Shown here: piece after piece, positions 33,808 through 48,662 of the stretch | Position numbering within the stretch: position 1 is the stretch's first letter | Layout of the letters: every line of letters starts with the position of its first letter | The notes under the pieces: generated by a model | Told to the model about the DNA's origin: nothing | Databases searched by the model: none | The model's input: the letters and a program-made list of their open reading frames with translations, nothing else | Assembly (NCBI RefSeq): GCF_000764535.1 | Contig: NZ_CP009571.1 | Coordinates: forward strand, 186,001 to 250,000 | DNA: 64,000 nt | From: Sphingomonas taxi | GTDB taxonomy: Bacteria; Pseudomonadota; Alphaproteobacteria; Sphingomonadales; Sphingomonadaceae | Direction: 5' to 3' | Made by a program: the position numbers and the translations under genes

Positions 33808-35559
33808 CTAGCTTCGGTCGACCTCTGCGCGCTTGCGAGTGCTCCGGACCTTGAGCAGGTCATGGCGCGAGAGGATGCCGAGAACCCGATTGGTGCCCAC
33901 CTCGACGATGGGAATGCGCCCGACCCCGCTCTCGACCATCAAATCGGCAACCTCGCCGATCGGCGAGTGCAAATAAGCGATCTGCTGCGACGAGTCGGAC
34001 AGCGCTTCGGCAAGCGACGTCTCCGGCAGCTCGCTTTCGACCTGCCAGCGCAGCGCATCGGACCTCGACACCATCGCCACCAGTCGCCCAGCCGCGTCCA
34101 CCACGGGATATGTCCGGTGCGTCGCGCCGTTCCCGAAATAGGCCACGGCATCCTTGATCGACATCGCCCCCGACAGAACGGCGGGATCGGGTGTCATCAC
34201 CTGCTCCGCTTGCAGGAACTCGTGCGGATCGACCGTATATTCCTGAAGGATGTGGCGGCCGCGGCGAGCGATCTTCTCGGTGAGGATCGACCGGCTCATG
34301 ATTAGGACGCTGATCGCATAGGCTCCGGTCGCAGCGGCGATCGTCGCCGGCAAGGCGTCGAAATGGCCCGTCAGCTCGACCGCGAACAGCGCGCCGGTCA
34401 GTGGTGCGCGCATGGCACCGCTCATCATCCCCGCCATGCCGACCATCGCCCAGAACCCTGTCGACCCGGGCAGGAACTGTCCAAGCAGGGCACCCAGGGC
34501 ACCGCCCATGATCAGCAAGGGCGCAAGCACGCCGCCCGACGTTCCCGAACCCAGTGCGACCAGCCACACGATCGCCTTCACGACCAGCAGTGCCAGGATG
34601 ACCCGCACCGCCAATGATCCGTCGAGCAGTGCCTGGATGTTCGAATAGCCTGCGCCGAGGACGCGGGCGTCGATCAGGCCGCCGATCCCGACGACGATAC
34701 CGCCCAGCGCCGGCCACCACATCCAATGCACGGGCAGCCGGTGGAACGCGTCCTCGACGCGGTAGAGCAACGCGGACAGCAGAGCCGCCTCCAGCCCGAC
34801 CAAGACACCCATGCCCAGTGCCAGACCTTCGGTCGGCCACCACGCCTGCACGGGTGCCGCCACGAACGGAAAGAGCGGTGCGGCCCCCAGCAGCATGGGC
34901 CGCCAAGCAAATGCCACCAGCGTTCCGAGGACCACGGGAACGAAGCTGCGGGGCTTCCACTCGAAGAGGAGGACCTCGATCGCCAGCAGGATCGCGGCGA
35001 TCGGCGTACCGAATATGCCGGTCATGCCGGCCGCAGCACCGGCAACCAGCAGCGTCTTCCGCTCGGCCGCGCTCAGATGAAAGCGTTGAGCGAAGAGCGA
35101 TCCGATGGCACCCCCGGTCATGATGATCGGACCTTCCGCGCCGAACGGACCCCCGCTGCCGATCGAAATCGCCGAGGACAATGGCTTGAGGATCGCGACC
35201 TTGAGCGACAGACGGCTTTCACCGTAAAGAATGGCCTCGATCGCCTCGGGAATCCCGTGCCCCTTGATCTTTTCCGAGCCGAAGCGCGCCATCAGGCCGA
35301 TCAGCAGACTGCCGATGACCGGTATCGCGACGACCGCCAGTCCGACACGCGCGTTCACGATCTCAGCCGGTGCGGCCGATATCCTGCCGAACCAGAAGAG
35401 GTTGGTGGCGAGCGCGATGAGCTTCAGCAGAACCCAGGCTCCGAACGCAGCGCCGGTGCCGACGACGACGGCCGCTCCGGCGAGCATGATCATGCGCCGG
35501 TCGGCGCTATGATCGGCAAGCCGCCTGGGTTCTGGAATGTTGATTGTGGACGCCGTCAT
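33808..35559 (-). CDS. ClC chloride channel/antiporter with CBS domains
   Basis: 583 residues from ATG 35559. The ClC membrane domain carries GSGGPFGAEGPI, keeping the gating Glu of the GxEGP motif that marks H+/Cl- antiporters, and GSGTSGGVLAPLL. The C-terminal third has two CBS repeats (VMTPDPAVLSG and the region ending RVLGILSRHDLL). It exchanges chloride for protons and may support acid resistance or volume control. It is divergent from a MarR regulator with a 19-bp palindrome 33 bp upstream of the start, so MarR repression is likely. Confidence 0.92.
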   Translation of the reverse strand: MTASTINIPEPRRLADHSADRRMIMLAGAAVVVGTGAAFGAWVLLKLIALATNLFWFGRISAAPAEIVNARVGLAVVAIPVIGSLLIGLMARFGSEKIKGHGIPEAIEAILYGESRLSLKVAILKPLSSAISIGSGGPFGAEGPIIMTGGAIGSLFAQRFHLSAAERKTLLVAGAAAGMTGIFGTPIAAILLAIEVLLFEWKPRSFVPVVLGTLVAFAWRPMLLGAAPLFPFVAAPVQAWWPTEGLALGMGVLVGLEAALLSALLYRVEDAFHRLPVHWMWWPALGGIVVGIGGLIDARVLGAGYSNIQALLDGSLAVRVILALLVVKAIVWLVALGSGTSGGVLAPLLIMGGALGALLGQFLPGSTGFWAMVGMAGMMSGAMRAPLTGALFAVELTGHFDALPATIAAATGAYAISVLIMSRSILTEKIARRGRHILQEYTVDPHEFLQAEQVMTPDPAVLSGAMSIKDAVAYFGNGATHRTYPVVDAAGRLVAMVSRSDALRWQVESELPETSLAEALSDSSQQIAYLHSPIGEVADLMVESGVGRIPIVEVGTNRVLGILSRHDLLKVRSTRKRAEVDRS

Positions 35560-35591
35560 ACACACCCGCCGGTTCAGGAACGGCAACCGCT

Positions 35592-35610
35592 TATATCGTG
35601 ACACGATATA
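35592..35610. promoter_or_regulatory. MarR-type operator between ClC and marR genes
   Basis: Perfect inverted repeat TATATCGTG-A-CACGATATA, 19 bp. It is centred between the divergent ClC and MarR genes (33 and 24 bp from the starts). MarR proteins bind such AT-bounded dyads and usually autoregulate. A near copy is at 36079-36090. Confidence 0.8.
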
Positions 35611-35633
35611 CTTCAACGCTTAGGATACTATCG

Positions 35634-36044
35634 ATGATCGATCGGGATGAGCTGACTGACGCCGACTATGCCGCGCTCGCGGATTTTCGGTATGCGCTTC
35701 GGCAGTTTCTGGCGTTCAGCGAGCGCGGCGCGGCAAGCTGCGGTCTGACGCCTCAGCAACACCAGGCGCTGCTCGCCATCCGGGGGGCTGCGCATGCGAA
35801 CGTCACCGTCGGCTATGTCGCCGAGCGTCTGGCCTTGAAGCCGCATAGCGCGACCGGGCTGGTCGATCGTCTGGAGACGCTTGGTCTCGTCACACGTCGG
35901 CCATCCCCCGACGACGGCCGACAGGCCTTGCTCGCACCGACGCAGAAGGCTCGAACGCTCTTGCGGGAGCTGTCGGAGACGCATCGCGAAGAGATCCTGC
36001 GGCTTCGCCCCATGTTGACCGAACTGCTTGCCCGCATGGATTGA
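35634..36044 (+). CDS. MarR family transcriptional regulator
   Basis: 136 residues from ATG 35634 with AGGA eight bases upstream. Winged HTH: VGYVAERLALKPHSATGLVDRLE then LVTRRPSPDDGRQ, the MarR wing. Helices at both ends form the dimer. It probably represses the divergent ClC antiporter gene and itself through the 19-bp palindrome. Ligand unknown. Open frame upstream lacks MarR features and overlaps the ClC start. Confidence 0.92.
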   Translation: MIDRDELTDADYAALADFRYALRQFLAFSERGAASCGLTPQQHQALLAIRGAAHANVTVGYVAERLALKPHSATGLVDRLETLGLVTRRPSPDDGRQALLAPTQKARTLLRELSETHREEILRLRPMLTELLARMD

Positions 36045-36078
36045 TCCAGTCTGCCAATCGCTCTGGTTGCGACATGTG

Positions 36079-36090
36079 TCGTATCACGAT
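36079..36090. promoter_or_regulatory. Second MarR-like half palindrome downstream of marR
   Basis: Read on the minus strand it is ATCGTGATACGA, differing at one base from the core ATCGTGACACGA of the operator at 35592-35610. It lies 35 bp past the marR stop, with no gene start nearby. It may be an auxiliary site or the trace of a lost promoter. The following 228 bp up to the SDR 3' end hold no gene. Confidence 0.4.
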
Positions 36091-36318
36091 GTATCGCGCA
36101 TCAGGGAGTCGGCGACATGCTGCCTGCCGAAGCTGAAGAGCAATATCATGTTGCCGCGGAGAAGCTCGATATGACAGCGTAACCCACAACCTATGGCCTC
36201 CGGTAAATCCGGGGCGGTTCACCTCGTATCGAGCCGAACCGGGATGGGCGCCATAGGAATGCGCTGCTCGCCTACGTCAACGCCCGTCGTGACATCCAGC
36301 GGGTCGATCGGCCGGTGG

Positions 36319-37092
36319 TCATCGCCGCGCCGTGCGCAGCCGCCGGCGCAGCAGCATCGTCACGACCGGCCGGGGCAGGATGGTCGCCAGCCTCACGAGC
36401 CAGCTCGTCACCGCGGGAAAACGATAATCGCGGCGTTCGCGGCGTAGCGCGCGAACGATATGGGCGACGCCTTGCCGCTCCGAAATCTCGAACGGGGACG
36501 GCATGTCGTGCGCCCGCGTCCGTTCGGTCGCGACGAAGCCGGGATAGATGCTGACGAAGCGGATGCCGTGATCGGCGAATTCGATGCGGCACGTGTCCAT
36601 CAGCAACCGCATCGCGCCCTTGGCGGCCGAATAGGGGCCTTGTAGCGGCACGCCCATCAACCCCGCGAGGGAATTGGTATGCGCGATCAACCCGTCGCGC
36701 TGTCGCATCATCTGGCGCAGCACGGGAAACAGGTAATGGACGCAGACATCGTAATTGCTCCGCATGTAACCGATGACCTCGCCCGCGCCGATCGTGCGCA
36801 GGTCGAGATCGGGCGCGCCGCCGACGTTCATCAAAAGCAGGTCGACCCGCCCGAATTGCGCGATGGTCGCGGCAACCACCACCGCGGCCGCCGCCGCGTC
36901 GCGCGCGTCGGCGGGATGGATCGCGCATTGCCCGCCTTGCAAAAGGATCTCGGCGGCGAGGCTTTGCAATTTCGCCTCGCGGCGCGCGGTGGCGACGATC
37001 GTCGCGCCTTCGGCGGCCAGATGCAGCGCGACGCCGCGACCCATCCCGCTCGATGCGCCGACGATGAGCACGACCTTGTCCCTGAACATCAT
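36319..37092 (-). CDS. SDR family oxidoreductase
   Basis: 257 residues from ATG 37092, which overlaps the aldehyde dehydrogenase stop (ATGA). It has VLIVGASSGMGRGVALHL, the NVGG variant of NNAG, a Ser in HTNSLAGLMG and catalytic YSAAKG. The C-terminus is basic (MLLRRRLRTARR) and might touch the membrane. It is coupled to the aldehyde dehydrogenase, so it probably oxidises an alcohol or reduces a ketone on the same pathway. Substrate unknown. Confidence 0.9.
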   Translation of the reverse strand: MMFRDKVVLIVGASSGMGRGVALHLAAEGATIVATARREAKLQSLAAEILLQGGQCAIHPADARDAAAAAVVVAATIAQFGRVDLLLMNVGGAPDLDLRTIGAGEVIGYMRSNYDVCVHYLFPVLRQMMRQRDGLIAHTNSLAGLMGVPLQGPYSAAKGAMRLLMDTCRIEFADHGIRFVSIYPGFVATERTRAHDMPSPFEISERQGVAHIVRALRRERRDYRFPAVTSWLVRLATILPRPVVTMLLRRRLRTARR

Positions 37093-38513
37093 CGCCCGTC
37101 GCCGATCGGTTTCAGTCCGGCGAGCAGGCGCATCGTCAGTCGCGCGGTCGCACCCCAGGGCGGCCCGAGCCGTTCGAACATGTTGATCGGCCCCGCCTTG
37201 TGGACGCCGCGCGCATGGCTGAACCGGCGGAAGCCGTCGCGGCCGTGATACGCGCCCATGCCACTCGGGCCGATCCCGCCGAAGGGCAGGGTGTGCTGGC
37301 CGACATGGAGCAGCGTCCCGTTGATCGTGACTCCGCCCGAAGTCGTGCCGTCGAGGATCGCCCGCTGCGTCGCCGAGCCATCGGCAAAGCAATAGAGCGC
37401 GAGCGGGCGCGGGCGCGCACGGACGAAGGCCAGCGCCGCGTCGAGCGTGTCATAGGGCTTCACCGGCAGCACGGGGCCGAAGATCTCCTCGCGCATCAAA
37501 GTGCAATCGTCGGGTGCGCCGAGCACCACCGTCGGCGCGATGCGATGGCTGGTGGATGCCGGGGCAGGGTGGGTCAGTATCTCGGCACCACAGCGACGGG
37601 CTTCCTCGATCGCATCGGTCAGACGCCGGTGGTGGCGCGCATCGATGACGTTGCTGTAATCATTGTTGTCGGCGATCGACGGATAGCGGCGCACCGCAGC
37701 CGCCAGCACGCCCTCGGCGAAGCGCCGCGCCGACGCCGCCGGCACCAGCGCATAATCGGGTGCGACGCAGGTCTGGCCGGCGTTGAGATAGCGGCCGAAG
37801 GCGATCGATCCGGCGGCGCGTTCGATCGCGTAATCGGGGGCGACGATCGCCGGCGACTTGCCGCCGAGTTCGAGCGTCACCGGTGTCAGATGCTCGGCGG
37901 CGGCGCGCAGGATATGGCGCCCGACATTGGTCGATCCGGTGAAGACGAGGTGATCGAGCGGCAAGCCCGACAGGGCTTGCGCCACCTCGACCCCGCCGGT
38001 CACGACGGTCAGCCGGTCGGCGTTGAACCGTTCCGCGACCAGCCGGGCTAGCAGCGCCGCGAAGGCGGGCGAGGATTCGGAAGGCTTGATCAGCACGCGA
38101 TTGCCCGCGGCGAGTGCATCGAGCGCCGGCCCGAGCGTCAGGAACAGCGGGTAGTTCCACGGCGCGATCACGCCGATCACCCCGAGCGGTTCGTACCGCA
38201 CCCAGGCACTGCCCGGTTTCAGGCTCAGATCGACGCGCCGCGGTTCGTCGCGCATCCAGTGTTTCAGATGGCCGCGGGCGTGGCGGATCGCGGTGATAAG
38301 CGGGACGATCTCCAATATGTCGGTCTCGCTCCGCGACCGGCCGCCGAAGTCGTCGGAGATCGCCTGCGCGAGCGCCGGGCGCCCGTCGAGCAGCAGGCCG
38401 TGCAGCGAATCGAGCAGCGCCCGCCGCGTCGCAAGGTCGGCGGCGGGTGCCTCGCGCGAGGCGCGATACTGGCGGTCGAAGGCGGCGTGCAACGCCTGCG
38501 CGTCGGGGGTCAT
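37089..38513 (-). CDS. Coniferyl aldehyde dehydrogenase-like enzyme
   Basis: 474 residues from ATG 38513 (MTPDAQALH), chosen because GAGAGG lies six bases upstream; earlier ATGs up to 38531 are in frame. NAD(P)-dependent aldehyde dehydrogenase with LELGGKSP, the nucleophile Cys in GQTCVAP and REEIFGPVLPV. Overall resemblance is to the coniferyl aldehyde dehydrogenase class (hydroxycinnamaldehyde to acid), which also covers fatty aldehyde enzymes. It is first in a two-gene unit with the SDR and divergent from the PLP-enzyme operon, so it may oxidise an aldehyde made there. Confidence 0.9.
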   Translation of the reverse strand: MTPDAQALHAAFDRQYRASREAPAADLATRRALLDSLHGLLLDGRPALAQAISDDFGGRSRSETDILEIVPLITAIRHARGHLKHWMRDEPRRVDLSLKPGSAWVRYEPLGVIGVIAPWNYPLFLTLGPALDALAAGNRVLIKPSESSPAFAALLARLVAERFNADRLTVVTGGVEVAQALSGLPLDHLVFTGSTNVGRHILRAAAEHLTPVTLELGGKSPAIVAPDYAIERAAGSIAFGRYLNAGQTCVAPDYALVPAASARRFAEGVLAAAVRRYPSIADNNDYSNVIDARHHRRLTDAIEEARRCGAEILTHPAPASTSHRIAPTVVLGAPDDCTLMREEIFGPVLPVKPYDTLDAALAFVRARPRPLALYCFADGSATQRAILDGTTSGGVTINGTLLHVGQHTLPFGGIGPSGMGAYHGRDGFRRFSHARGVHKAGPINMFERLGPPWGATARLTMRLLAGLKPIGDGR

Positions 38514-38680
38514 ATCCATCCTCTCCATCATGCGTCGCCGGGCGACACCTTGCGACCCTATGGCGCTCGATCGGATATAACAAGATCAACGCTCACATAT
38601 AGATGTAGCGTAGTTTATAAAAGCTGATAGGGTGATCGTATCGACTCGGTGAAGAAGTCGACACGATGGAGAGGAGCGAC

Positions 38681-39916
38681 ATGGTCGATCGCGAGAGCGT
38701 CGCGTCGGCACGGACCGGTGCGTCCGCAGCCGTTGCCTACCGTCTTTATGCCGATGCGCTCGCGGGCGAGCGGCTGCCCGCTGCCTTCGTCGATCTCGAC
38801 GCGCTCGACCGCAACGGCGAGCGGCTTGGCGCGCGTGCGGCGGGACTACCGGTCCGGCTCGTCACCAAGTCGATCCGCTCGGTGGCGATCCTGCGCTATC
38901 TGCTCGCCAGCTTTCCCTATCTGCAAGGCCTGCTCTGCTTCTCGCCCACCGAGGCGGCGTGGCTGGCGGGGCAGGGGTTCGACGATCTCGTCGTCGCCTA
39001 CCCGACCGTCGAGCGGAGCGAGATCGCGCTGGTCGCGGCGGCGGTACGCGGCGGCGCGTCGATCACGCTGATGGTCGATCATGTCGACCAGCTCGACATC
39101 ATCGATGCCTGCGCGGCTGCGGCGGCGACCTCGCTGCCGGTGGCGATCGACATGGACGCGTCGACCGCTTTCCCCGGCGTGCATTTCGGTGTCTATCGCT
39201 CGCCGGTGGCGACCCCGGCGGCGGCGCTGGCGCTCGCCGCGGAGATCGCGGGGCGGCCCTATCTGCGGCTCGACGGGGTGATGGGCTATGAGGGCCAGAT
39301 CGCCGGTCTCAACGACGCCGTGCCGGGCCAGGCGGTGCGCAACCGCATCATCCGGACGCTCAAGGCGCGCTCGATCCGCGACGTCCGGCGGCGACGGGGC
39401 GCGATCGTCGCCGCGCTGCTAGCGGCCGGACACCGGCTGCGCTTCGTCAACGGCGGCGGCACGGGCAGCTTCGAGAGCACTGCACGCGATCCCAGCGTTA
39501 CCGAACTCGCAGCGGGATCGGGCTTCTACCTGCCGGGGCTGTTCGATCATTACGCGATCCGCCTCGGCGAGCCCGCCGCGGGCTTCGCGCTGCCCGTCAC
39601 GCGCCGTCCGACGGCCGGGATGGTGACCTGTGCGGGCGGCGGCTATCCCGCCTCCGGTCCGATCGGGCCCGACCGGCTGCCCAAGCCGTGGCTACCGGCG
39701 GGGACGACGCTGATCGCCAACGAGGGCGGCGGCGAGGTGCAGACGCCGGTGCGGCTCGCCGCCGCCGGCGCACTGCCGATCGGCGCCCCCGTCTTCTTTC
39801 GCCACGCCAAGGCCGGCGAGCTCTGCGAGCGCTTCGAGACGCTGCTGCTTCTGCGCGGCGGTGCGATCGTCGACCGCGTCGCGACCTATCGCGGCGACGG
39901 CCGCTGCTTCTTCTGA
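38681..39916 (+). CDS. PLP-dependent alanine racemase-fold enzyme (deaminase/aldolase type)
   Basis: 411 residues from ATG 38681, chosen for the GAGGAG just upstream; ATG 38666 is in frame. The N-terminal barrel has a PLP Lys63 in VRLVTKSIRS, DGVMGYEGQI and the phosphate-binding NGGGTGS. The C-terminal domain has FRHAKAGELCERFE, placed like the metal-binding loop of D-threonine aldolase and D-serine dehydratase. It may cleave or deaminate a beta-hydroxy D-amino acid. It heads the operon with a TonB receptor, MFS transporter and flavoprotein oxidase. Reaction is inference; fold is fairly certain. Confidence 0.8.
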   Translation: MVDRESVASARTGASAAVAYRLYADALAGERLPAAFVDLDALDRNGERLGARAAGLPVRLVTKSIRSVAILRYLLASFPYLQGLLCFSPTEAAWLAGQGFDDLVVAYPTVERSEIALVAAAVRGGASITLMVDHVDQLDIIDACAAAAATSLPVAIDMDASTAFPGVHFGVYRSPVATPAAALALAAEIAGRPYLRLDGVMGYEGQIAGLNDAVPGQAVRNRIIRTLKARSIRDVRRRRGAIVAALLAAGHRLRFVNGGGTGSFESTARDPSVTELAAGSGFYLPGLFDHYAIRLGEPAAGFALPVTRRPTAGMVTCAGGGYPASGPIGPDRLPKPWLPAGTTLIANEGGGEVQTPVRLAAAGALPIGAPVFFRHAKAGELCERFETLLLLRGGAIVDRVATYRGDGRCFF

Positions 39917-39957
39917 CCTGCAACGACAGGATTGCGCCAACGGCAAAGGGGATGACG

Positions 39958-42204
39958 ATGACACGGCACGGATTACATTACGGGATGCTCGCCATCGCGC
40001 TGGCCGGATCGACCGGCGCGCGCGCGCAGACCGCCGATCAGCCCGCGGCGCCGGCCGAGGGCGATATCGTCGTCACCGCGCAACGTCGGTCCGAACGGTT
40101 GCAGGACGTGCCGATCGCGGTGACCGCGATCACCGGCGACGATCTGCGCGAACGCCGCATCGCCGACGTGCTCGACCTGTCGGGCCGCGTCCCCGGCCTG
40201 CAGATCCGTTCGGCGGACAATGGCGCCAACCCGCGCATCTTCATCCGCGGCGTCGGCCTCAACGACTTCAACCCGGCGACCGCCAGCGCGGTCGGCATCT
40301 ACGTCAACGGCGTCTACGTCGCCTCGACGCTGGCGCAGCGCGATGCCTTCTTCGATCTCGGGCAGGTCGAGGTGCTGCGCGGACCGCAGGGGACGCTGTA
40401 CGGCCGCAACACCACCGGCGGCGCGATCAACGTCACCACGCGCAAGCCGGGCGATACGCCCGAGGGCGACCTGTCGCTCGATTACGGCCGCTTCGATGCG
40501 GTGACGTTTCAGGGCGGGGTGAGCGCGCCGGTCGTGCCCGACCTGCTCGCGGTGCGCGTCGCCGGCCTCTACCAGCGCGACGACGGCTATATGCGCAACA
40601 CGCTCACCGGCGATCGCGGCAACAACGTCGATCGCTGGGCCGTGCGCAGCAGCGCCCATGTCACGCCGTCGAGCACGATCACCGACGATCTCACCGTCAA
40701 TGCCAGCCGCTCGAGCGGTGGCTCGCTTCAGGCATATTCTCGCTCGCTGATCCCGCAGACCGCGGCGGCGACCGGAGCGGACGGCCTGTGCGCGCCGGCT
40801 TTCTACACTTCCGGGCAATGCACCAACATCCTCGGCTACGCCAATACCAGCCGCAACCTCTACGAGGGCGCCTACCGGTTCGAGGGACGCGACCGGGTCA
40901 GCCTCTATGGCGTCGGCAACACCGTGTCGGTCGATCTCGGGACGGTCAGCCTGATCGCGGTGACCGGATTCCAGCATGCCACCCGCAACGATCAGGAGGA
41001 TACCGACGCCAGCCCGGTGCCGGTCGTCGCTGCCTCCTACATCACCCGGCAGGACACGGTCAGTCAGGAATTGCGGCTCCAGTCGAACGGCCACGGCCGG
41101 CTGCGCTATGTCGCCGGTCTCTATTATGCGCACGATCTGATCCGCAACGCCTCGTCGTTCGACGTATTGCCAGGCCTGCGTTCGCCGACCGCCGACAATC
41201 CGAGCGGCGTCGATCTCGCCGCGGGGATCGGCGACTTCGCCTGGCCATCGCGGCAGGCGACCGACAGCTATGCCGCCTTCGGCCAGCTCGACTACGACCT
41301 GACGCCGCGGCTGACGTTGACCGGCGGCCTGCGGTATTCCGCCGATCGCAAGGACTTCACCTATCGCGCCGACGCCGCCGGCGGCAGCATCACCCTGTTC
41401 ACCTTCGCCGATGCCAAGACATTCGGTGCGTGGTCGGGCCGCGCCGGACTGCAATACCGGTTTTCGGAGGCTGCCAACGTCTACGCGAGCTACAATCGCG
41501 GCACCAAGAGCGGCGGCTTCTTCAGCGGCTTCGCGCAGGATCCGTCGCTGATCGGCCCTTACAGGGACGAGACGGTGGACGCTTATGAGGTGGGTGCCAA
41601 GACGCAATGGCTCGACCGCCGGCTCGGCCTCAATCTCTCGGCCTTCTATTACGATTACCGCGATCTGCAGGTCTATACCTCGGTGGTGCAGGGGCTCATC
41701 ACGACACAGCTCTTCACCAACGCCTCGGCGGCGCGAATCTACGGTGCTGAAATCGAACTGACCGCGCGACCGATCGACGGGCTCAACCTCGCCGCCTCGA
41801 CATCGCTGCTCGACGCCACCTATCGCAACTTCATCTCGCAGGGGGCCGACTATTCGGGCAATCGCCTGCCATCGGCGCCCAGGGTCAGCGTCCAGGCGAG
41901 TGCCGACTATCGCAAGCCGATCGGCAGCGGTGCGCTCGTCGCGCGCGCCGATTTGTCCTATCGCAGCCGCGTGTTCTTCGACACGTCGAACGCCGCCCGG
42001 CTCGGCGACCCCGCGCGTGCCTTCGTCGACGGGCGGATCGGCTGGCAGTTCGCCGGGGACCGCTACGAGGCGGCATTGTGGGTCCGCAACCTGTTCGACG
42101 TACCGGTCATCTCCGACATCACGCCGCTGCCCGCGCTCGGCTTCGACGCGATCGTCGTCGGGCGGCCGCGGACCTGGGGCCTGTCGCTGCGGGCGCACTA
42201 CTGA
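39958..42204 (+). CDS. TonB-dependent receptor of the PLP/oxidase operon
   Basis: 748 residues from ATG 39958 (AAAGGGG upstream; ATG 39952 is also in frame). Signal peptide ends near GARAQ. The TonB-box-like GDIVVTAQRR precedes the plug (LQIRSADNGANPRIFIRGVG, VEVLRGPQGTLYGRNTTGGA) and a barrel ending LSLRAHY. It imports the operon's unknown substrate. The MFS gene starts one base into its stop (TGATG), and it begins 41 bp after the PLP-enzyme gene, so all are cotranscribed. Confidence 0.92.
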   Translation: MTRHGLHYGMLAIALAGSTGARAQTADQPAAPAEGDIVVTAQRRSERLQDVPIAVTAITGDDLRERRIADVLDLSGRVPGLQIRSADNGANPRIFIRGVGLNDFNPATASAVGIYVNGVYVASTLAQRDAFFDLGQVEVLRGPQGTLYGRNTTGGAINVTTRKPGDTPEGDLSLDYGRFDAVTFQGGVSAPVVPDLLAVRVAGLYQRDDGYMRNTLTGDRGNNVDRWAVRSSAHVTPSSTITDDLTVNASRSSGGSLQAYSRSLIPQTAAATGADGLCAPAFYTSGQCTNILGYANTSRNLYEGAYRFEGRDRVSLYGVGNTVSVDLGTVSLIAVTGFQHATRNDQEDTDASPVPVVAASYITRQDTVSQELRLQSNGHGRLRYVAGLYYAHDLIRNASSFDVLPGLRSPTADNPSGVDLAAGIGDFAWPSRQATDSYAAFGQLDYDLTPRLTLTGGLRYSADRKDFTYRADAAGGSITLFTFADAKTFGAWSGRAGLQYRFSEAANVYASYNRGTKSGGFFSGFAQDPSLIGPYRDETVDAYEVGAKTQWLDRRLGLNLSAFYYDYRDLQVYTSVVQGLITTQLFTNASAARIYGAEIELTARPIDGLNLAASTSLLDATYRNFISQGADYSGNRLPSAPRVSVQASADYRKPIGSGALVARADLSYRSRVFFDTSNAARLGDPARAFVDGRIGWQFAGDRYEAALWVRNLFDVPVISDITPLPALGFDAIVVGRPRTWGLSLRAHY

Positions 42205-43364
42205 TGGCGGCACCCACGACCCGCGCGGCCTATGTCGCCGCCTTCGTCGCCGGGGTCTACGGCATCCTGATGGCGGGGCTCGCGCCGCTGCTGCTCGGTA
42301 CGCTCGTCACCGAGGGTCATCTTACCGCGGCGCAGCTCGGGCTGGCCGCGACCGCCGAGCTGGTGACGATGGGACTCGCCGCGGGCACCGCCAGTCTGCT
42401 GGTCGAATGCGTGTCGCCGCGGCTGCTGGCGCCGATCAGCGTGGTGGCGATCATGGTGCTCGACGCCGCGACCGGCCGCGCCACCGGCATCGGCGTCATC
42501 CTGATGCGCGCACTCGCCGGCGTGCCGAGTGGCGTGCTGATCGGCCTCGTCACCGCGATGATCGTCCGGTCGGCACAGCCGGCGCGGCAGGCGGGCCTCT
42601 ATCTCACCATCCAGACGGTGGCGCAGCTCACCTGCGCCGCGCTGATCGGTGGGCTGGTCGCGCAACGGCTGGGCGCGGCGGCGGGATTTCTCGCCGTCGC
42701 CGCGCTCGGCGCGCCGGTCGGGCTCGTCGCGCTGTGGACGCCGGCACGGCTGTCACCGTTCGCCGCCGGACGGGGGATCGCATTGCCCGACGTCTATGGC
42801 TGGCTGGCGCTGGTCGCCGCCTTCTGCTTCTTTGCCGGCATCCTTGCCATCTGGATCTATCTCGAACCGCTCGCGCATCAGGCCGGGCTGTCGCCCGCCA
42901 CCGCCGGACTGGCGGTGGTGCTCGCACTGGCGGGGCAGGTGGTCGGCGGCGCGCTGGGTGCCGCGAGCGTGCCGCATTGGCCATGTCGCGTCGTCCTGCT
43001 CGGCTCGACGCTCGTGCTGATCGTCGCCGCGGCGATATTTGCGACGTTGCCCGGCGCCACGCTCTTCCTCGCCACCGCAATCCTCTTCGGACTGCTCTGG
43101 GCCTTCGCCAGCCCGTATTTCACGCGGCTGCTGATCGACGTCGATCCCAGCCATCGCGCCGCCTTGCTCGGGTCGGCGGCGCTGCTGCTCGGCTGCGCGA
43201 CCGGGCCAACGCTCGCTTCGCTGAACGTTGGCGATGTCGACGTGCGCGGCTGCCTGCGCCTCGGCACCGGGATGCTGACCGTCGCCGGTGGTATCGTGCT
43301 GCTGCTTCCCGTTCTCCGGCGACTGGGCGGGATCGCCTTCGCCCAACCGAAAGATCGATCATGA
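42204..43364 (+). CDS. MFS transporter of the PLP/oxidase operon
   Basis: 386 residues from ATG 42204, about 12 membrane helices (first near AAYVAAFVAGVYGILMAGL). MFS proteins of this length usually carry small solutes; the loop between TM2 and TM3 has no strong signature. It would move the substrate from the periplasm into the cytosol, or export a product. It overlaps the TonB receptor stop and its own stop overlaps the flavoprotein start. Confidence 0.85.
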   Translation: MAAPTTRAAYVAAFVAGVYGILMAGLAPLLLGTLVTEGHLTAAQLGLAATAELVTMGLAAGTASLLVECVSPRLLAPISVVAIMVLDAATGRATGIGVILMRALAGVPSGVLIGLVTAMIVRSAQPARQAGLYLTIQTVAQLTCAALIGGLVAQRLGAAAGFLAVAALGAPVGLVALWTPARLSPFAAGRGIALPDVYGWLALVAAFCFFAGILAIWIYLEPLAHQAGLSPATAGLAVVLALAGQVVGGALGAASVPHWPCRVVLLGSTLVLIVAAAIFATLPGATLFLATAILFGLLWAFASPYFTRLLIDVDPSHRAALLGSAALLLGCATGPTLASLNVGDVDVRGCLRLGTGMLTVAGGIVLLLPVLRRLGGIAFAQPKDRS

Positions 43365-44632
43365 CCGAATGGAGCAACTGGTCGGGCAGCGTCGTCGCGC
43401 ATCCCGCCGCGGTCGCGCGTCCGCGCGGTCTCGACGAACTGGCGGCGATCGTCGCCGGCGCTCGACGGCTGCGTCCGGTTGGCGCGGGCCATTCGTTCAT
43501 GCCGCTGTGCCAGACCGAGGGGACCTTGCTGTCGCTCGCCGATCTCGAAGGCGATGTCGAGGTCGCCGCCGACCGCCGCTCGGTCTGGGCACCTGCCGGC
43601 TGGAGCCTCGCGCGGCTGACCGACGCTTTGTGGCCGGAGGGGCTGTCGCTCTACAATCAGGGCGACGTCAACCCGCAGGCGCTGGCCGGCGCCGCCGCCA
43701 CCGGTACCCACGGCACCGGAGAGACGCTCGGCAGCATCGCCACGCAGGTCACCGGTGTCCGGCTGATGCGCGCCGACGGCACGCTCGTCACCTGCGACGC
43801 GCAGACCGAACCCGCATTGTTCCAGGCGCAACGGCTCGGCCTCGGCCTGCTCGGCGTCGCCGTGGCGATGCGAATCGCGGTACTGCCGGCCTATCACCTC
43901 GAGGAGCGGGTCGAGCGCTGGCCGCTTGCCGTGGTGCTCGACCGGTTCGACGAGCTGGCGGCGGCGTCGCGACACATGGAATTCTGGGTCTTTCCTTATG
44001 CGGACCACGTCATCCTCAAGCGGCTGCATCCGGTCGAGCCCGAGGGCCCTTATCGTCACGCCAACGACGTCAACGAGGGCGCCTTCCGCGTCGCCTGCAA
44101 CATCTCACGGCGCCGGCCGGGGCTGATCCCCATGCTCCAGCGCGGCATGATGCACGCGATCGGCGGCCCGAAGCGCCGCGTCGGCCCCGCCTATCGGATC
44201 TTCGCGCAGGAGCGGACCGTGCGTTTCGAGGAAATGGAATATGAGGTGCCGCGTGCCGACGGGCTGGCGACGTTGCGCGAGGCGCTCGGCTACGTCCGAA
44301 AGGCGCGGCTGCCGCTTTCCTTTCCATTCGAGGTGCGTACCGTCGCGGGTGACGATATCTGGCTGAGCCCGTTCCACGCCGGACCGTGCCTGTCGATTTC
44401 GGTCCATCAATATGCCGGCATGCCGTGGCGCGATGAGTTCGCCGCGGTCGAGTCGATCCTGCGCGGCGCGGGCGGGCGGCCGCACTGGGCGAAACGCCAC
44501 ACGCTCGATCCGGCAAGCGCGCACGCGCTCTACCCGCGGCTCGCCGACTTCCTCGCGGTGCGCCGCGACGTCGATCCGGAGGGCAAGTTCGTCAACGCCT
44601 TCTTCGGCCGGCTGTTCGCCATCAGGGGGTGA
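43361..44632 (+). CDS. Aldonolactone oxidase-type FAD oxidoreductase
   Basis: 423 residues from ATG 43361 (ATGA overlap with the MFS stop). The VAO/PCMH FAD-binding domain has VGAGHSF, where His is the covalent FAD-attachment residue of gulonolactone, arabinonolactone and alditol oxidases, and ATGTHGTGETLGS. The C-terminal D-arabinono-1,4-lactone oxidase domain includes FPFEVRTVAGDD and the end DPEGKFVNAFFGRLF. It oxidises a sugar lactone, alditol or related alcohol. No signal peptide, so cytosolic. Its substrate is probably what the receptor and MFS deliver. Confidence 0.9.
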   Translation: MTEWSNWSGSVVAHPAAVARPRGLDELAAIVAGARRLRPVGAGHSFMPLCQTEGTLLSLADLEGDVEVAADRRSVWAPAGWSLARLTDALWPEGLSLYNQGDVNPQALAGAAATGTHGTGETLGSIATQVTGVRLMRADGTLVTCDAQTEPALFQAQRLGLGLLGVAVAMRIAVLPAYHLEERVERWPLAVVLDRFDELAAASRHMEFWVFPYADHVILKRLHPVEPEGPYRHANDVNEGAFRVACNISRRRPGLIPMLQRGMMHAIGGPKRRVGPAYRIFAQERTVRFEEMEYEVPRADGLATLREALGYVRKARLPLSFPFEVRTVAGDDIWLSPFHAGPCLSISVHQYAGMPWRDEFAAVESILRGAGGRPHWAKRHTLDPASAHALYPRLADFLAVRRDVDPEGKFVNAFFGRLFAIRG

Positions 44633-44645
44633 CAGGGCGCGGCGA

Positions 44646-44659
44646 CAAACGGCCGTTTG
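44646..44659. promoter_or_regulatory. Candidate TetR operator
   Basis: CAAACGGCCGTTTG is a perfect 14-bp palindrome between the flavoprotein stop and the TetR ATG at 44695. Its position suggests autoregulation. No copy was seen in the 38514-38680 divergent promoter, which weakens the idea that it controls the whole operon. Confidence 0.5.
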
Positions 44660-44694
44660 CCTTCGGCGGCGTGGCAAGCCACAGCGATCCCGTC

Positions 44695-45321
44695 ATGGTC
44701 CAACCACGCCGACTTCCGATGCAGGAGCGCAGTCTCCGCCGCCGCGAGGCGATCCTCGTCGCCGCGCAGGAGCTGCTCGTCACCGAAAACCCCGAGGATC
44801 TCGCAATGCGCGAGGTGGCGCGCCGCGCCGGGATCTCGATCGGCTCGCTCTATCAATATTTCCCGTCGAAGCCCGCGATCCTGCGCGCGCTGGTATTGCG
44901 CAATCTCGAGAAGGTCGGCGAACTGCTGCGCACCGAGGTGGAGACGCTGCTCGCCGATCATGGTGGCCGGCCGACGATCGTACAGGCCGTCGACCGGATC
45001 ATCGACGCGTATGTGAACCATTATCGCAGCCATCCCGAGACGATCGCGGTGTGGGCCGGGGCGCAGGCCGATCTGGAGCTGCGCCGGCTCGACGTGATCG
45101 ATACGCATGCCACCGCCGACTTCATGGTCGCGCCGATGATGATCCTGCTATCGTCGTCCGACCGCGATCGGATCCTGTCGGCGGCGCTGCTCATCACCGA
45201 ACTCGCCGGCCATGCGGTGCGGCTGGCGCTCGCGGTCGAGTCGCCGATGACTGAGCGAATCGTCGCGCAATTCAAGACGATGGTCGTCGCGGTCCTCGAA
45301 GCCAATCGCGAGGCGGGTTAG
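44695..45321 (+). CDS. TetR family regulator of the PLP/oxidase operon
   Basis: 208 residues from ATG 44695; GTG 44629 in frame would overlap the flavoprotein stop but would put the palindrome inside the gene. N-terminal HTH: LAMREVARRAGISIGSLYQYFPSK. The C-terminal ligand domain contains DVIDTHATADFMVAPMMIL. It is last in the operon, so it probably controls it. The stop overlaps the convergent DUF962 gene by 4 bp. Confidence 0.9.
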   Translation: MVQPRRLPMQERSLRRREAILVAAQELLVTENPEDLAMREVARRAGISIGSLYQYFPSKPAILRALVLRNLEKVGELLRTEVETLLADHGGRPTIVQAVDRIIDAYVNHYRSHPETIAVWAGAQADLELRRLDVIDTHATADFMVAPMMILLSSSDRDRILSAALLITELAGHAVRLALAVESPMTERIVAQFKTMVVAVLEANREAG

Positions 45322-45806
45322 CGCGGCGTCATGCTCCGCTTCACCTCCAGCCGCAGCCCGAGAAGGAAGGCGATTTCCGCCACGACGAACAACGGCCCGA
45401 CGATCAGGCCGGACAGATCGTCGACGAACGCCGGTTTGCGGCGTTCGAAATAATGGCCGACGAATTGAAACGCCCAGCCTACCACGAAGGCGCCGATCCC
45501 GATCCCCAGCCACGCGCCGGTGGACAGGCCGGCGACCGCGACGCCCACCCAGCAGCTCAGCGCGAGCAATATGGTCATGACGAGCCCGAACCGCAGGTCG
45601 AGCCTCAGATAGAAGACCGCGACCGCCGCCGACAGCAGCATCGCCGGTGTCAGCGACATACCCCCGCCCACTGCGATCGCCGGCCGAGACGCGAGGATCG
45701 CGATCGCCAGCACGATCAGCGGTATGCCGAGCATATGCGTTGCGATATTGCGTTCGTCGCGATGATAGTCGGCATAAACGGACAAATGCCTCACGAGGTC
45801 GGTCAT
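45318..45806 (-). CDS. Mpo1-like / DUF962 membrane protein
   Basis: 162 residues with about four membrane helices. YHRDERNIATHMLGIP gives the conserved His-x-Asn-x-His pattern and QFVGHYFERRKPAF the second His motif of the Mpo1/YGL010w family. Yeast Mpo1 is an Fe2+-dependent dioxygenase that oxidises 2-hydroxy fatty acids. Sphingomonads make 2-hydroxy fatty acids in sphingolipids, so this is a reasonable role by inference. It is a single gene divergent from the Crp/Fnr regulator. Confidence 0.88.
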   Translation of the reverse strand: MTDLVRHLSVYADYHRDERNIATHMLGIPLIVLAIAILASRPAIAVGGGMSLTPAMLLSAAVAVFYLRLDLRFGLVMTILLALSCWVGVAVAGLSTGAWLGIGIGAFVVGWAFQFVGHYFERRKPAFVDDLSGLIVGPLFVVAEIAFLLGLRLEVKRSMTPR

Positions 45807-45845
45807 CGTGATTCTCCTCTGGTCTCAAATGACGATAGTTGATGC

Positions 45846-46571
45846 GTGCGGTTGCGACTGTCGCATGGGCGACATCGGAAGCGCGCGGTGACCCGCGACG
45901 CCATGCTGGCCATCCTCGCCGAGGGGGCGTGGTTCAACCGACTGTCGCCGTCCTTCCGTGCGGCGTTGCTCGCGGACGGGCGGGAGATGCGGTTTGCGGC
46001 GGGGGCGCCGGTCTTCTGGCGCGGCGACACCGCCGACGGGCTTTACGCGGTGCTCGACGGAGCGGTCGAGATCGGTGGGGTCGATGCGGCCGGTCACGCC
46101 GCGACCTTGATCCATGTGCAGCCGGGCATGTGGTTCGGCGAGATCGCGCTGATCGACGGCATGGCGCGCACCCACGACGCGATCGCGGTGCGCGAAACGA
46201 TGTTGCTTTGCGTTCCCCGCGGACCGCTGTTTGCCGGTCTGGACCAGCGGCCCGGTCATTGGCGCGAATTGGCGTGGCTGACCACGGAGAAACTCCGTCT
46301 CAGTTTTCGGGCGGCCGAGGCCGCATCGCTGCTCAGCGCGCCGCAGCAGGTGGCGACCCGGTTGATGATGATGGTCGATGGCTATGGGGGCACGGGCGCG
46401 CGCCATACCACGCTACGGCTTTCGCAGGAGCAACTCGCGGCGATGCTTTCGCTGTCCCGTCAGACGGTCAACCGCATTCTAAAAGCGCTCGAACAGAATG
46501 GCGTAATCGCCGTCAGTCATGGCCGAATAGACATCGTGGATCTTCCGTCGTTACGAACAATCTGCGAATGA
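45846..46571 (+). CDS. Crp/Fnr family transcriptional regulator
   Basis: 241 residues from GTG 45846; GTG 45888 or ATG 45903 are possible shorter starts. Cyclic-nucleotide-binding-like beta roll (MRFAAGAPVFWRGDTADGLY, QPGMWFGEIALIDG), then a C-terminal HTH LSQEQLAAMLSLSRQTVNRI. No N-terminal Cys cluster for an Fe-S sensor is seen, so it is not a classical Fnr. Effector unknown. It is divergent from the DUF962 gene across 39 bp. Confidence 0.92.
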   Translation: MRLRLSHGRHRKRAVTRDAMLAILAEGAWFNRLSPSFRAALLADGREMRFAAGAPVFWRGDTADGLYAVLDGAVEIGGVDAAGHAATLIHVQPGMWFGEIALIDGMARTHDAIAVRETMLLCVPRGPLFAGLDQRPGHWRELAWLTTEKLRLSFRAAEAASLLSAPQQVATRLMMMVDGYGGTGARHTTLRLSQEQLAAMLSLSRQTVNRILKALEQNGVIAVSHGRIDIVDLPSLRTICE

Positions 46572-46686
46572 CTGACAGGTCTCCCGTGATCCAAGGTGAA
46601 AGCTATGCTGTGTACAGGGCTTGGTGCTTGCCGATCTGCCGCCGCTTAGCTCGAGCGCCTCGTCAGGCGTGATTGTCCCGCGCACT

Positions 46687-46776
46687 ATGGTCATCTACAG
46701 CGAGGGTGATCGTGTCTGTCGGCGGCCGCGAGACCCGGACGGCAATCTGATCGAAATCTCGTCCTACGACGAATAG
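46687..46776 (+). pseudogene. C-terminal remnant of a VOC/glyoxalase-fold protein
   Basis: Thirty codons ending RRPRDPDGNLIEISSYDE and a stop. RDPDGNLIEIS is the diagnostic last strand of VOC (glyoxalase/bleomycin resistance) proteins. The 115 bp upstream to the Crp stop contains no matching N-terminal domain. It is a fragment of a deleted gene. Confidence 0.6.
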
Positions 46777-46839
46777 GTTCGTCATCGAATTGCCAAGGCC
46801 GTATCGCGCGACGACCGACATTAGGCCGGCGTCCGCCCT

Positions 46840-47430
46840 CTAAGCGATGGGCGGGCCGGGAAGCGGATCGATCGCCAGCACGAGACGACGTTCGCCAGTA
46901 GCGCTGATTGGTGGCGAGCGGTGGAGAATGGTGGGCGGGTCGAGCAGCAACCGCCCCTTGAACACAGCCACCGCGCCGGTCGGCACCTCGCAGACGGCAT
47001 CGGCGGCATCGGCGCGGCACCACTGGGTGCCAGGCCCGATATAGCTGCACAGCAGCCGCAGCGTCACGAAGTCGGCGTGGAAGCGGCGGCAGGCATCGGT
47101 TTCGACGACTTCGAGTCGCAGCCGCAACCGATCCTCGCCGATCAGCGCGGCATGGCGCCGCACCAACAGTCCGATATCTTCAGCAAGCAGCGTCGCGACC
47201 GGATCGGCATAGCTCGCGTCGGCAAGTGCGCCATCGATCGCCTCTCCGGCGGCGAGGTCGAGCGACACATCATCGACTGTGTCGAGGTCGAGAAATGCCA
47301 GCGCGGCGCGCAGCGCGTCCGGCAGCGACCGCCACCAGATGGCCAAAGCGGCATCGGGCCGCGCAATCGCGTCGAGCGAAGAGCGATCATGGCCGAGCAC
47401 CACGATGTCATCAGGCATGACGAGCGTCAT
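46840..47430 (-). CDS. DUF1826 family protein, zinc-linked
   Basis: 196 residues from ATG 47430, overlapping the ZigA stop by 4 bp. [42 protein letters not shown] and [12 protein letters not shown] recall the DUF1826 family, which keeps conserved His residues and occurs beside COG0523 GTPases in zinc-starvation operons. Activity is unknown; it could be an Fe/2OG-like fold by the HAD and RLV motifs (speculation). Its expression should follow the Zur box upstream of zigA. Confidence 0.8.
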
Positions 47431-48662
47431 TCTGCCGCCTCCGGCTGGCGCTTGCCCCAGCCCGGGAACGGATCGCGCAAGCCGGACCACAGTGCCGGGG
47501 TGAAGGCGGCGGCGGGCACGAGGCAGGCGTCGAGTCGCGTGCGAATCCTTGCCTCGTCCATGCCGATGCCGATGAACACCAGCTCCTGCCGCCGATCGCC
47601 CCAGATCATATCCCAATGCCTGGCGACGAACTCCTCGAACCGGCCATCGTCGGGCCATTGGTGTTTGGGGATCGACGCCCACCAGCGACCCATGCGCGCA
47701 GTTTCGGTCTGGCTGCCCGCCACCGCCAGCTCGCCGACCCAGTCGGGGCGCGTCGCCAGCCAGAAATGCCCCTTGGCACGCACGACGTGATCTAGGCCAC
47801 CATCGGTCAGGAAGGCATGGAACTTCGCCGGATCGAACGGCGCGCGTGTGCGGTAGACGAAGCTCTCGATGCCATATTCCTCGGTCTCGGGCTGGTGATG
47901 GGCATAGCCGTACAGCTCCTTGGCCCAGAGCGGATGGCGCGACGCCTTCTCCTCGTCGAACAGCCCGGTGGCGAGGACGAGATCGAGATCGATGCGGGAA
48001 TGGTCGGCCGCGACGATCACCGCATCGGCATTGAGGCTGGCGACCAGTTTCGTGACCACCCCGAGCTGCTCGGCCGACACCGACGAGGCCTTGTTGACGA
48101 TCACCACATCGGCGAATTCGATCTGCTCGACCAGCAGGCCGACCAGGCTGCGCGTATCGTCCTGGCCCATGCTTTCGCCGCGATCGGCGAGGAAGTCCTG
48201 GCTGGAATAATCGGCGAGCAGGTTCACCGCATCGACCACCGTCACCATCGTGTCGAGCCGCGCGACATCGCCCAGCGATACGCCGTCCTCGTCGCGGAAC
48301 GAGAAGGTGGTGGCGACGGGCAGCGGCTCGGAGATGCCGGTGCTCTCGATCACCAGATAGTCGAACCGTCCTGCCTCGGCGAGCGTGCGCACCTCCGCCA
48401 GCAGGTCGTCGCGCAGCGTGCAGCAGATGCAGCCATTGGTCATCTCGACCAGCGCTTCCTCCGACCGCGACAGTGCCGCCTCTCCACCGCGCACCAGGTC
48501 GGCGTCGATATTCACCTCCGACATGTCGTTGACGATCACCGCCACCCGCCGCCCCTCGCGGTTCACCAGGATGTGGTTGAGCAGGGTCGTCTTTCCGGCC
48601 CCGAGGAAACCGGACAGCACCGTCACCGGCAGGCGGGTGTCTTGCAGAATATGGCTTGCCAT
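47427..48662 (-). CDS. zigA: COG0523 zinc metallochaperone GTPase ZigA
   Basis: 411 residues. G1 motif [16 protein letters not shown], metal-binding CxCC in [12 protein letters not shown] and a G3-like [10 protein letters not shown]. The CobW C-terminal domain follows, ending [13 protein letters not shown]0523 proteins of this subclass deliver zinc under starvation. The perfect Zur-type dyad upstream (48679-48703) and the coupled DUF1826 gene agree. The symbol is by resemblance to Acinetobacter ZigA. Confidence 0.88.

Follow-up and report, generated by a model that had tools for sequence, protein, structure and literature searches.

Sphingomonas taxi carries a cluster of seven genes in two divergent units on contig NZ_CP009571.1 (assembly GCF_000764535.1; 4.06 Mb, three contigs), which we analyzed within a stretch of 64,000 nucleotides (positions 186,001 to 250,000), hereafter called the window. 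One unit encodes an aldehyde dehydrogenase (ALDH) and an SDR-family dehydrogenase, the other a pyridoxal phosphate (PLP) enzyme, a TonB-dependent receptor, an MFS transporter, a flavoprotein of the VAO/ALO family (here called the ALO protein) and a TetR-type regulator. The original prediction, made from this DNA, had named these seven families, including a VGAGHSF-bearing flavoprotein, and family models identified all of them. The cluster is real, conserved and functionally coherent. Contrary to the earlier statement that the set matches no named pathway, it resembles the sphingosine-responsive sphBCD genes of Pseudomonas aeruginosa.

Table 1. Genes and candidate regulatory element of the cluster and its immediate neighbor (coordinates of the window)
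Feature	Position	Strand	Remarks
SDR family dehydrogenase	36319..37092	-	257 aa; PF00106, 1.6e-40
Aldehyde dehydrogenase (ALDH), class-3-like	37089..38531	-	480 aa; PF00171, 1.8e-84
Candidate operator, inverted repeat CATCGAC-N11-GTCGATG	38639..38663		5′ of the PLP gene
PLP enzyme, alanine-racemase fold, D-threonine-aldolase-like	38681..39916 (alternative start 38666)	+	PF01168
TonB-dependent outer-membrane receptor	39952..42204	+	PF00593 + PF07715
MFS transporter	42204..43364	+	PF07690, 1.5e-15
VAO/ALO-family flavoprotein	43361..44632	+	FAD_binding_4 + ALO (PF04030); TIGR01679
TetR-family regulator	44629..45321	+	PF00440 + PF17928
Mpo1-like protein (2-hydroxy-fatty-acid dioxygenase family)	45318..45806	-	PF06127, 5.3e-21; tail-to-tail with the TetR gene

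All junctions within the two units had been described as overlaps of 4 or 1 bp. This holds for four of them, namely ALDH/SDR (4 bp), TonB/MFS (1 bp), MFS/ALO (4 bp) and, if the GTG at 44629 is the start of the TetR gene, ALO/TetR (4 bp); the PLP and TonB receptor genes are separated by a gap of 35 bp. The open reading frame of the PLP enzyme comprises 416 amino acids if read from 38666 and 411 if read from 38681. The latter is probably the correct start, because a 96% identical homologue (P0008) has 411 amino acids and the same ATG is found in five orthologous loci. The inverted repeat preceding this gene, a candidate operator, is present in the window and in the same five loci, perfect in three of the six and with one mismatch in the other three, the window among them. 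No Rfam family was detected between positions 36000 and 46000.

The flavoprotein is a member of TIGR01679 (377.4 bits, curated cut-off 292.25), and its VGAGHSF motif suggests that the flavin adenine dinucleotide is probably bound covalently. It is homologous over its full length to the structurally characterized AldO (2vfr; 149 bits), with Glu324, Arg326 and Lys378 conserved. Gly101 occupies the oxygen-gatekeeper position, and this residue together with the linkage to PLP aldolases sets the window protein apart from AldO and its TIGR01679 relatives. The adjacent Asp102 faces a serine in the alignment with AldO, which we take to be Ser106. We considered Asp102 as a specific acidic amine-binding residue, but it is present in 97 of 99 distinct rows of the subfamily (the remaining two show a serine and a gap), including ALO genes without a PLP neighbor, and is therefore no marker of amine substrates. 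The N-terminus (MTEWSNWSG) shows no leader when inspected by eye, without a signal-peptide program.

For the PLP enzyme, a fold type III barrel containing the PLP lysine is predicted, as in D-threonine aldolases; the Schiff-base residue would be Lys68 in the numbering of the 416-residue reading frame. The predicted model is closest to D-β-hydroxy-amino-acid aldolases, with 20–24% sequence identity to D-threonine aldolase and to the β-hydroxyaspartate aldolase BhcC (also fold type III), whose family model gives 72 bits against a cut-off of 690. We take the metal-binding motif HCD and the motif AKTHK to be the defining marks of D-threonine aldolase, and both are seen in the canonical rows of our alignment. 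The window enzyme carries RHAKAGELCERF in place of HCD and RLVTKSIRS (xKSxR) in place of AKTHK. In a tree of 54 rows hand-picked from 181, the window type, the type of SphD (the PLP protein of the sphBCD set) and the canonical D-threonine-aldolase type form three clades, each with full support.

Based on its sequence, the ALDH is a class-3-like enzyme of the hydrophobic-aldehyde type: its closest solved sequences are a steroid aldehyde dehydrogenase, followed by ALDH3-type, fatty-aldehyde and benzaldehyde dehydrogenases, and the best NCBIfam model, that of the benzaldehyde dehydrogenase MdlD, remains under its cut-off (318 versus 550 bits). For the SDR we considered the role of a 3-ketosphinganine reductase, which we rejected after a search of solved structures returned generic FabG-like proteins as best matches (best 60 of 568). 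Homologues with 50–60% identity to the SDR lie within 6 kb of a window-type PLP gene in Solimonas (inside a PLP-SDR-ALO arrangement) and in Paraburkholderia ferrariae, and about 9 kb from one in Pseudomonas QS1027. The MFS transporter, we infer, serves uptake across the inner membrane.

To follow the cluster beyond the window, we scanned genome contigs with a profile derived from 20 aligned PLP homologues and kept the best 80 of 257 loci, in which neighboring genes were counted by direct matches. Five of these loci (L032–L036) represent the same cluster in other Sphingomonas genomes, at 77–89% protein identity and with the SDR found in four. Within 6 kb of the PLP gene, an ALO gene was detected in 56 of the 80 loci and a GMC oxidoreductase gene in nine (either of them in 65), next to MFS (29), window-type ALDH (10), SDR (6) and TonB receptor genes (6); AraC-type regulators (18) and ceramidases (5) were counted within 10 kb. 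Outside L032–L036, the window-type ALDH occurs in 5 of 75 loci, all from Pseudomonas or Burkholderia, and at one locus (L043) PLP, ALO, ALDH and MFS genes form a single same-strand run. The original prediction had itself suggested searching other genomes for this neighborhood, with chance juxtaposition as the alternative; because the two units occur together in other genera, we discard that alternative.

Rows of the window-type PLP clade come from seven phyla (Pseudomonadota, Myxococcota, Bacillota, Chloroflexota, Acidobacteriota, Bacteroidota and Hydrogenedentota). An oxidase of the ALO or GMC family lies beside the PLP gene in six of them, and a ceramidase in the seventh (Bacteroidota). The gene is nevertheless rare overall, since only the window's own genome reached an E-value of 1e-30 with the PLP profile among 398 sampled genomes of its phylum. 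The GMC loci, of which eight of nine also contain an ALDH, apparently represent an exchange of the oxidase. Besides the window-type PLP gene, two of them (L083, 6834–11484; L104, 6653–11236) and related loci encode a GMC oxidoreductase and an ALDH, along with a small protein (about 139 amino acids) for which Pfam gave no match in L083. In Brevibacillus gelatini (L093, 10001–11176), a window-type PLP gene has a serine for the PLP lysine (RIASSSIRSV), with no ALO gene detected close by, and is possibly decayed.

Among 298 genomes of the Sphingomonadaceae, window-type PLP genes were found only in the window's own genome and in one other (G227, 66%), and the flavoprotein in 30. An alanine-racemase-fold PLP gene adjoins the ALO gene in 28 of the other 29 genomes, the last one having none; counting the window, where the TonB receptor and MFS genes lie in between, 29 of the 30 ALO clusters contain such a gene. 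Nineteen of the 28 PLP genes are of the canonical D-threonine-aldolase type, eight of the SphD type and one of the window type. One genome of the same genus illustrates the exchange with the order TonB(60%)-MFS(48%)-TetR-ALO(60%)-PLP, in which the PLP protein belongs to the canonical family, carries the HCD motif and has a D-3-hydroxyaspartate aldolase as its best solved relative (266 bits). Four Sphingomonadaceae clusters contain homologues of the MFS transporter, three of them with 46–48% identity and one with 37%. At another locus (L240), an ALDH gene (45%) and the ALO-PLP pair point away from each other in the manner of the window; no other of the 20 regions has an ALDH above 40%. Related uptake and oxidase genes therefore work with three PLP clades.

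The closest described counterpart of the cluster is sphBCD. We took 11 regions from a sample of 148 Pseudomonadaceae genomes, together with one Nitrospirillum region. Locus L162 shows the order argB, AraC regulator (PF12625 and PF12833), outer-membrane protein (PF13557), PLP enzyme (PF01168), ALO (PF04030, VGSGHSF), cytochrome c (PF13442, 6.8e-14), an exonuclease-III-family gene, which we take to be crc, and rph; argB (TIGR00761) and rph (TIGR01966) exceed their cut-offs, and both the PLP and ALO proteins have a twin-arginine-like leader. This order matches the published argB-sphR-sphA-sphDCB arrangement of P. aeruginosa, where PA5323–PA5328 are argB, sphR, sphA, sphD, sphC and sphB (PMC3900636; partial text). 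According to the part of PMC11893366 available, SphR mediates induction of sphBCD by sphingosine, sphingosine loss requires sphBC, with its product and direct enzymes not identified in that work, and the authors propose that SphC oxidizes C1 before SphD performs an aldol cleavage. The same source terms SphC an FMN-linked oxidoreductase. The L162 protein in the SphC position reaches 464 bits with TIGR01679, however, and is therefore an ALO/VAO-family protein like the window flavoprotein, with which it shares 37% identity over 423 columns (E 2.8e-82). The two PLP proteins fall into separate clades; a profile of 82 window-clade rows matches 51 SphD-clade rows with an E-value of 4.5e-32 and 39 rows of the D-threonine-aldolase type with 4.7e-26. 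In the Nitrospirillum region (L160), a cytochrome c-ALO-PLP series precedes genes for a TonB receptor and an ALDH that are 47% and 49% identical, respectively, to their window counterparts.

Both systems combine an ALO-family flavoprotein and an alanine-racemase-fold PLP enzyme with an outer-membrane protein and a regulator nearby, but they differ in several respects. No CxxCH motif was found in the six frames of window positions 36000–46000 and no cytochrome family among the seven genes; export signals are missing from the window proteins, the ALO protein being leaderless where its L162 counterpart has SRRQLLQ (by eye); a TetR regulator takes the place of the AraC-type SphR; and the window has an additional ALDH, SDR, MFS transporter and TonB receptor. 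The cluster works like sphBCD, but since the cytochrome, export and SphR features are lacking, it is not a member of that group. Glycine at the gatekeeper position agrees with the missing cytochrome.

Further links to sphingosine regulation came from other genomes. We chose nine genomes from the 18 window-type PLP loci with a nearby AraC gene and searched them with the L162 SphR sequence: in all nine, the AraC protein encoded no more than 10 kb from the PLP gene was the best match genome-wide, in one case with a second match close behind (242 versus 235 bits). That other genera possess orthologues of the SphR regulon had been noted before by LaBauve and Wargo (PMC3900636; partial text), and DiGianivittorio et al. 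reported STRING co-occurrence of sphBCD in Firmicutes, Actinobacteria and three classes of Proteobacteria, with nothing beyond these in the part of the article available (PMC11893366). A porin of the Burkholderia clusters was considered as a SphA homologue and rejected, as it has no match in the 12 Pseudomonas/Nitrospirillum regions and belongs to PF13609 rather than PF13557. In Pseudomonas sp. MWU13-2105 (L159, 7000–19900), an sphBCD-like operon and a window-type PLP-ALDH-MFS-SMP30-SDR set lie about 3 kb apart. Fifteen Pseudomonadaceae loci of about 4 kb (L127–L132, L134, L136–L142, L144) carry SphD-like PLP genes (43–47%) with no ALO gene detected.

Ceramidase genes (PF04734) provide a connection to sphingolipids. 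In a member of the Bacteroidota (L098), the gene directly 5′ of the PLP gene, in the same orientation, encodes a ceramidase (E 1.1e-119), and in a member of the Rhodospirillales (L068), PLP, ALO, MFS and ceramidase genes follow each other in line (E 7.6e-63). At a third locus (L065; E 2.3e-143), and likewise in its near relative L069 as judged by BLAST, the ceramidase is about 3 kb away with other genes in between, and L066 has a weak match (40 bits) on the opposite strand. Among 44 further cluster-bearing genomes, a set without these five loci, seven contain a ceramidase, from which we roughly estimate that fewer than 0.2 such neighbors are expected by chance in 80 loci of about 20 kb.

Gene content, homology, predicted fold, conserved linkage and the swapping of parts are observed. 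On this basis, and with moderate confidence, we favor the interpretation that the cluster encodes a regulated module by which 2-amino-1,3-diols are taken up and catabolized. Sphingoid bases (sphinganine, phytosphingosine, sphingosine) are the most likely of these compounds, the best reading that homology and neighbors in other genomes give. The TonB receptor and the MFS carrier would import the compound, and the cytosolic ALO flavoprotein would oxidize the C1 alcohol, perhaps on to the acid, passing electrons to O2. By our reasoning, this oxidation would give a natural sphingoid base the D configuration at C2, which is what an enzyme resembling D-threonine aldolase would require. The PLP enzyme could then split C2–C3 into glycine (or aminoacetaldehyde) and a long-chain aldehyde, which the ALDH would convert to a fatty acid. 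A hydroxyl or aldehyde group may be the target of the SDR, and TetR would control the gene set. No amidohydrolase is among the seven genes, so that an amine with free nitrogen is the likelier substrate. The original prediction had proposed that the PLP enzyme cleaves a β-hydroxy D-amino acid to an aldehyde for the ALDH. This is the best-supported chemistry, given the predicted model, the canonical D-threonine-aldolase-family genes that take the place of the PLP gene next to this flavoprotein in related genomes, and the joint occurrence of the ALDH type with the PLP gene in some other genera.

More tentatively, since we consider it possible but not the likelier case, oxidative-aldol breakdown of unphosphorylated sphingoid bases may be spread over many bacterial phyla and assembled from interchangeable parts (three PLP-aldolase clades, ALO or GMC oxidases, TonB or porin uptake), with a cytosolic, O2-using version in Sphingomonas in contrast to the periplasmic, cytochrome-linked sphBCD. 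Literature searches listed no article describing this cluster or the degradation of sphingoid bases by Sphingomonas. The clusters would supply enzyme families, the missing aldehyde-oxidizing step and ceramidase-linked relatives for free sphingoid-base metabolism; their relatives in many bacteria make a proposed, unproven sphingoid-lipid route directly testable, and assays should be simpler with the leaderless, probably cytosolic versions than with the Pseudomonas proteins, which are exported. Plants as well as sphingomonads are rich in sphingolipids, and the route could therefore be of importance to bacteria living on leaves; judging from names such as Leaf242, leaves seem to be the origin of some strains with the cluster.

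Several observations weigh against a sphingoid-base module. The window's genome and those of its five Sphingomonas relatives yielded no ceramidase, and none of the six ceramidase-bearing genomes among the 298 Sphingomonadaceae is among the 30 with the ALO gene, so that co-occurrence within this family was dropped as an argument. About 0.6 co-occurrences were expected by chance, and this result is therefore a lack of support rather than an exclusion. The evidence linking ceramidases to the module comes from other families and phyla. The window PLP enzyme is only 25% identical to SphD (E 7e-14), and both lack the D-threonine-aldolase metal motif. P. aeruginosa does not need sphD to grow on sphingosine, and it is unproven that SphB or SphC act directly (PMC11893366; partial text). 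Of the 80 window-type PLP loci, 15 (some on short contigs) lack both ALO and GMC genes within 6 kb. In a wider sample of 240 alphaproteobacterial genomes, a PLP gene was found within 1.5-kb flanks at 9 of 29 ALO loci and was missing at 20, and the link is therefore limited to some branches of the ALO family. Finally, the rule that glycine marks oxidases and other gatekeepers mark cytochrome-linked enzymes holds in part only: proline or serine gatekeepers are also found with cytochrome or Tat signs, which weakens the oxidase/dehydrogenase argument. These signs were crude text patterns that overlooked the cytochrome of L162 itself.

The same chemistry might instead act on another 2-amino-1,3-diol of plants or microbes, e.g., an aryl-serinol, yielding glycine and an aromatic aldehyde oxidized by a benzaldehyde-dehydrogenase-like ALDH. 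The MdlD match, though under its cut-off, and the lack of ceramidases in Sphingomonadaceae with the module would fit this idea, as would a parallel in chloramphenicol degradation. A Nocardia route has been proposed to involve a GMC oxidase, a threonine aldolase and an aldehyde dehydrogenase (PMC13400229; partial text), and expression of a Sphingomonas gene in P. putida demonstrated the oxidase step for CapO (PMC9590159; partial text). As described in these partial texts, the capO and chdABCDE genes thus also unite an alcohol oxidase acting on the C3 hydroxyl group, a threonine aldolase, an aldehyde dehydrogenase and a transporter on a 2-amino-1,3-diol. They differ, however, by the GMC type of the oxidase, an L-threonine-aldolase annotation and an amidohydrolase; neither a GMC oxidase nor an amidohydrolase is among the seven window genes, which also include no nitro-aromatic genes. 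Together with the homology and synteny to sphingosine-regulated genes and the ceramidase neighbors elsewhere, this makes an aryl-serinol substrate rather unlikely. It is improbable that the PLP enzyme acts as a D-amino-acid dehydratase or racemase instead of an aldolase; its fold family does include D-serine dehydratase and D-threo-3-hydroxyaspartate dehydratase, and its metal motif is altered, but the predicted model is closest to aldolases. Catabolism of amino-sugar acids or polyols, with the flavoprotein acting on an alditol or aldonolactone and the PLP enzyme cleaving or deaminating a D-amino-sugar acid (e.g., D-glucosaminate), hardly seems probable either. The family name (PF04030) and the solved relative AldO favor it, as do the genes of the SMP-30 lactonase and SDR families that some Pseudomonas genomes and one from Burkholderia carry after PLP-ALDH-MFS. 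Against it stand the absence of a sugar kinase or lactonase among the seven genes, the hydrophobic-aldehyde type of the ALDH, and the SphR-like regulators and ceramidases of relatives, which point to lipids. The aldonolactone role first given to the flavoprotein is not supported, with a sugar-1,4-lactone-oxidase score of 201 bits (cut-off 397).

The cluster is flanked (33808–36044 and 45846–48662) by genes for a CLC chloride channel with CBS domains, a MarR regulator, a Crp-type regulator and a CobW-family GTPase, which have no evident link to it. The Mpo1-like gene next to the TetR gene is possibly linked; yeast Mpo1 takes part in phytosphingosine breakdown. We do not count it as part of the module, because the five Sphingomonas relatives have it neither near the cluster nor elsewhere in their genomes, and because its family is widespread (82 of 199 Sphingomonadaceae genomes).

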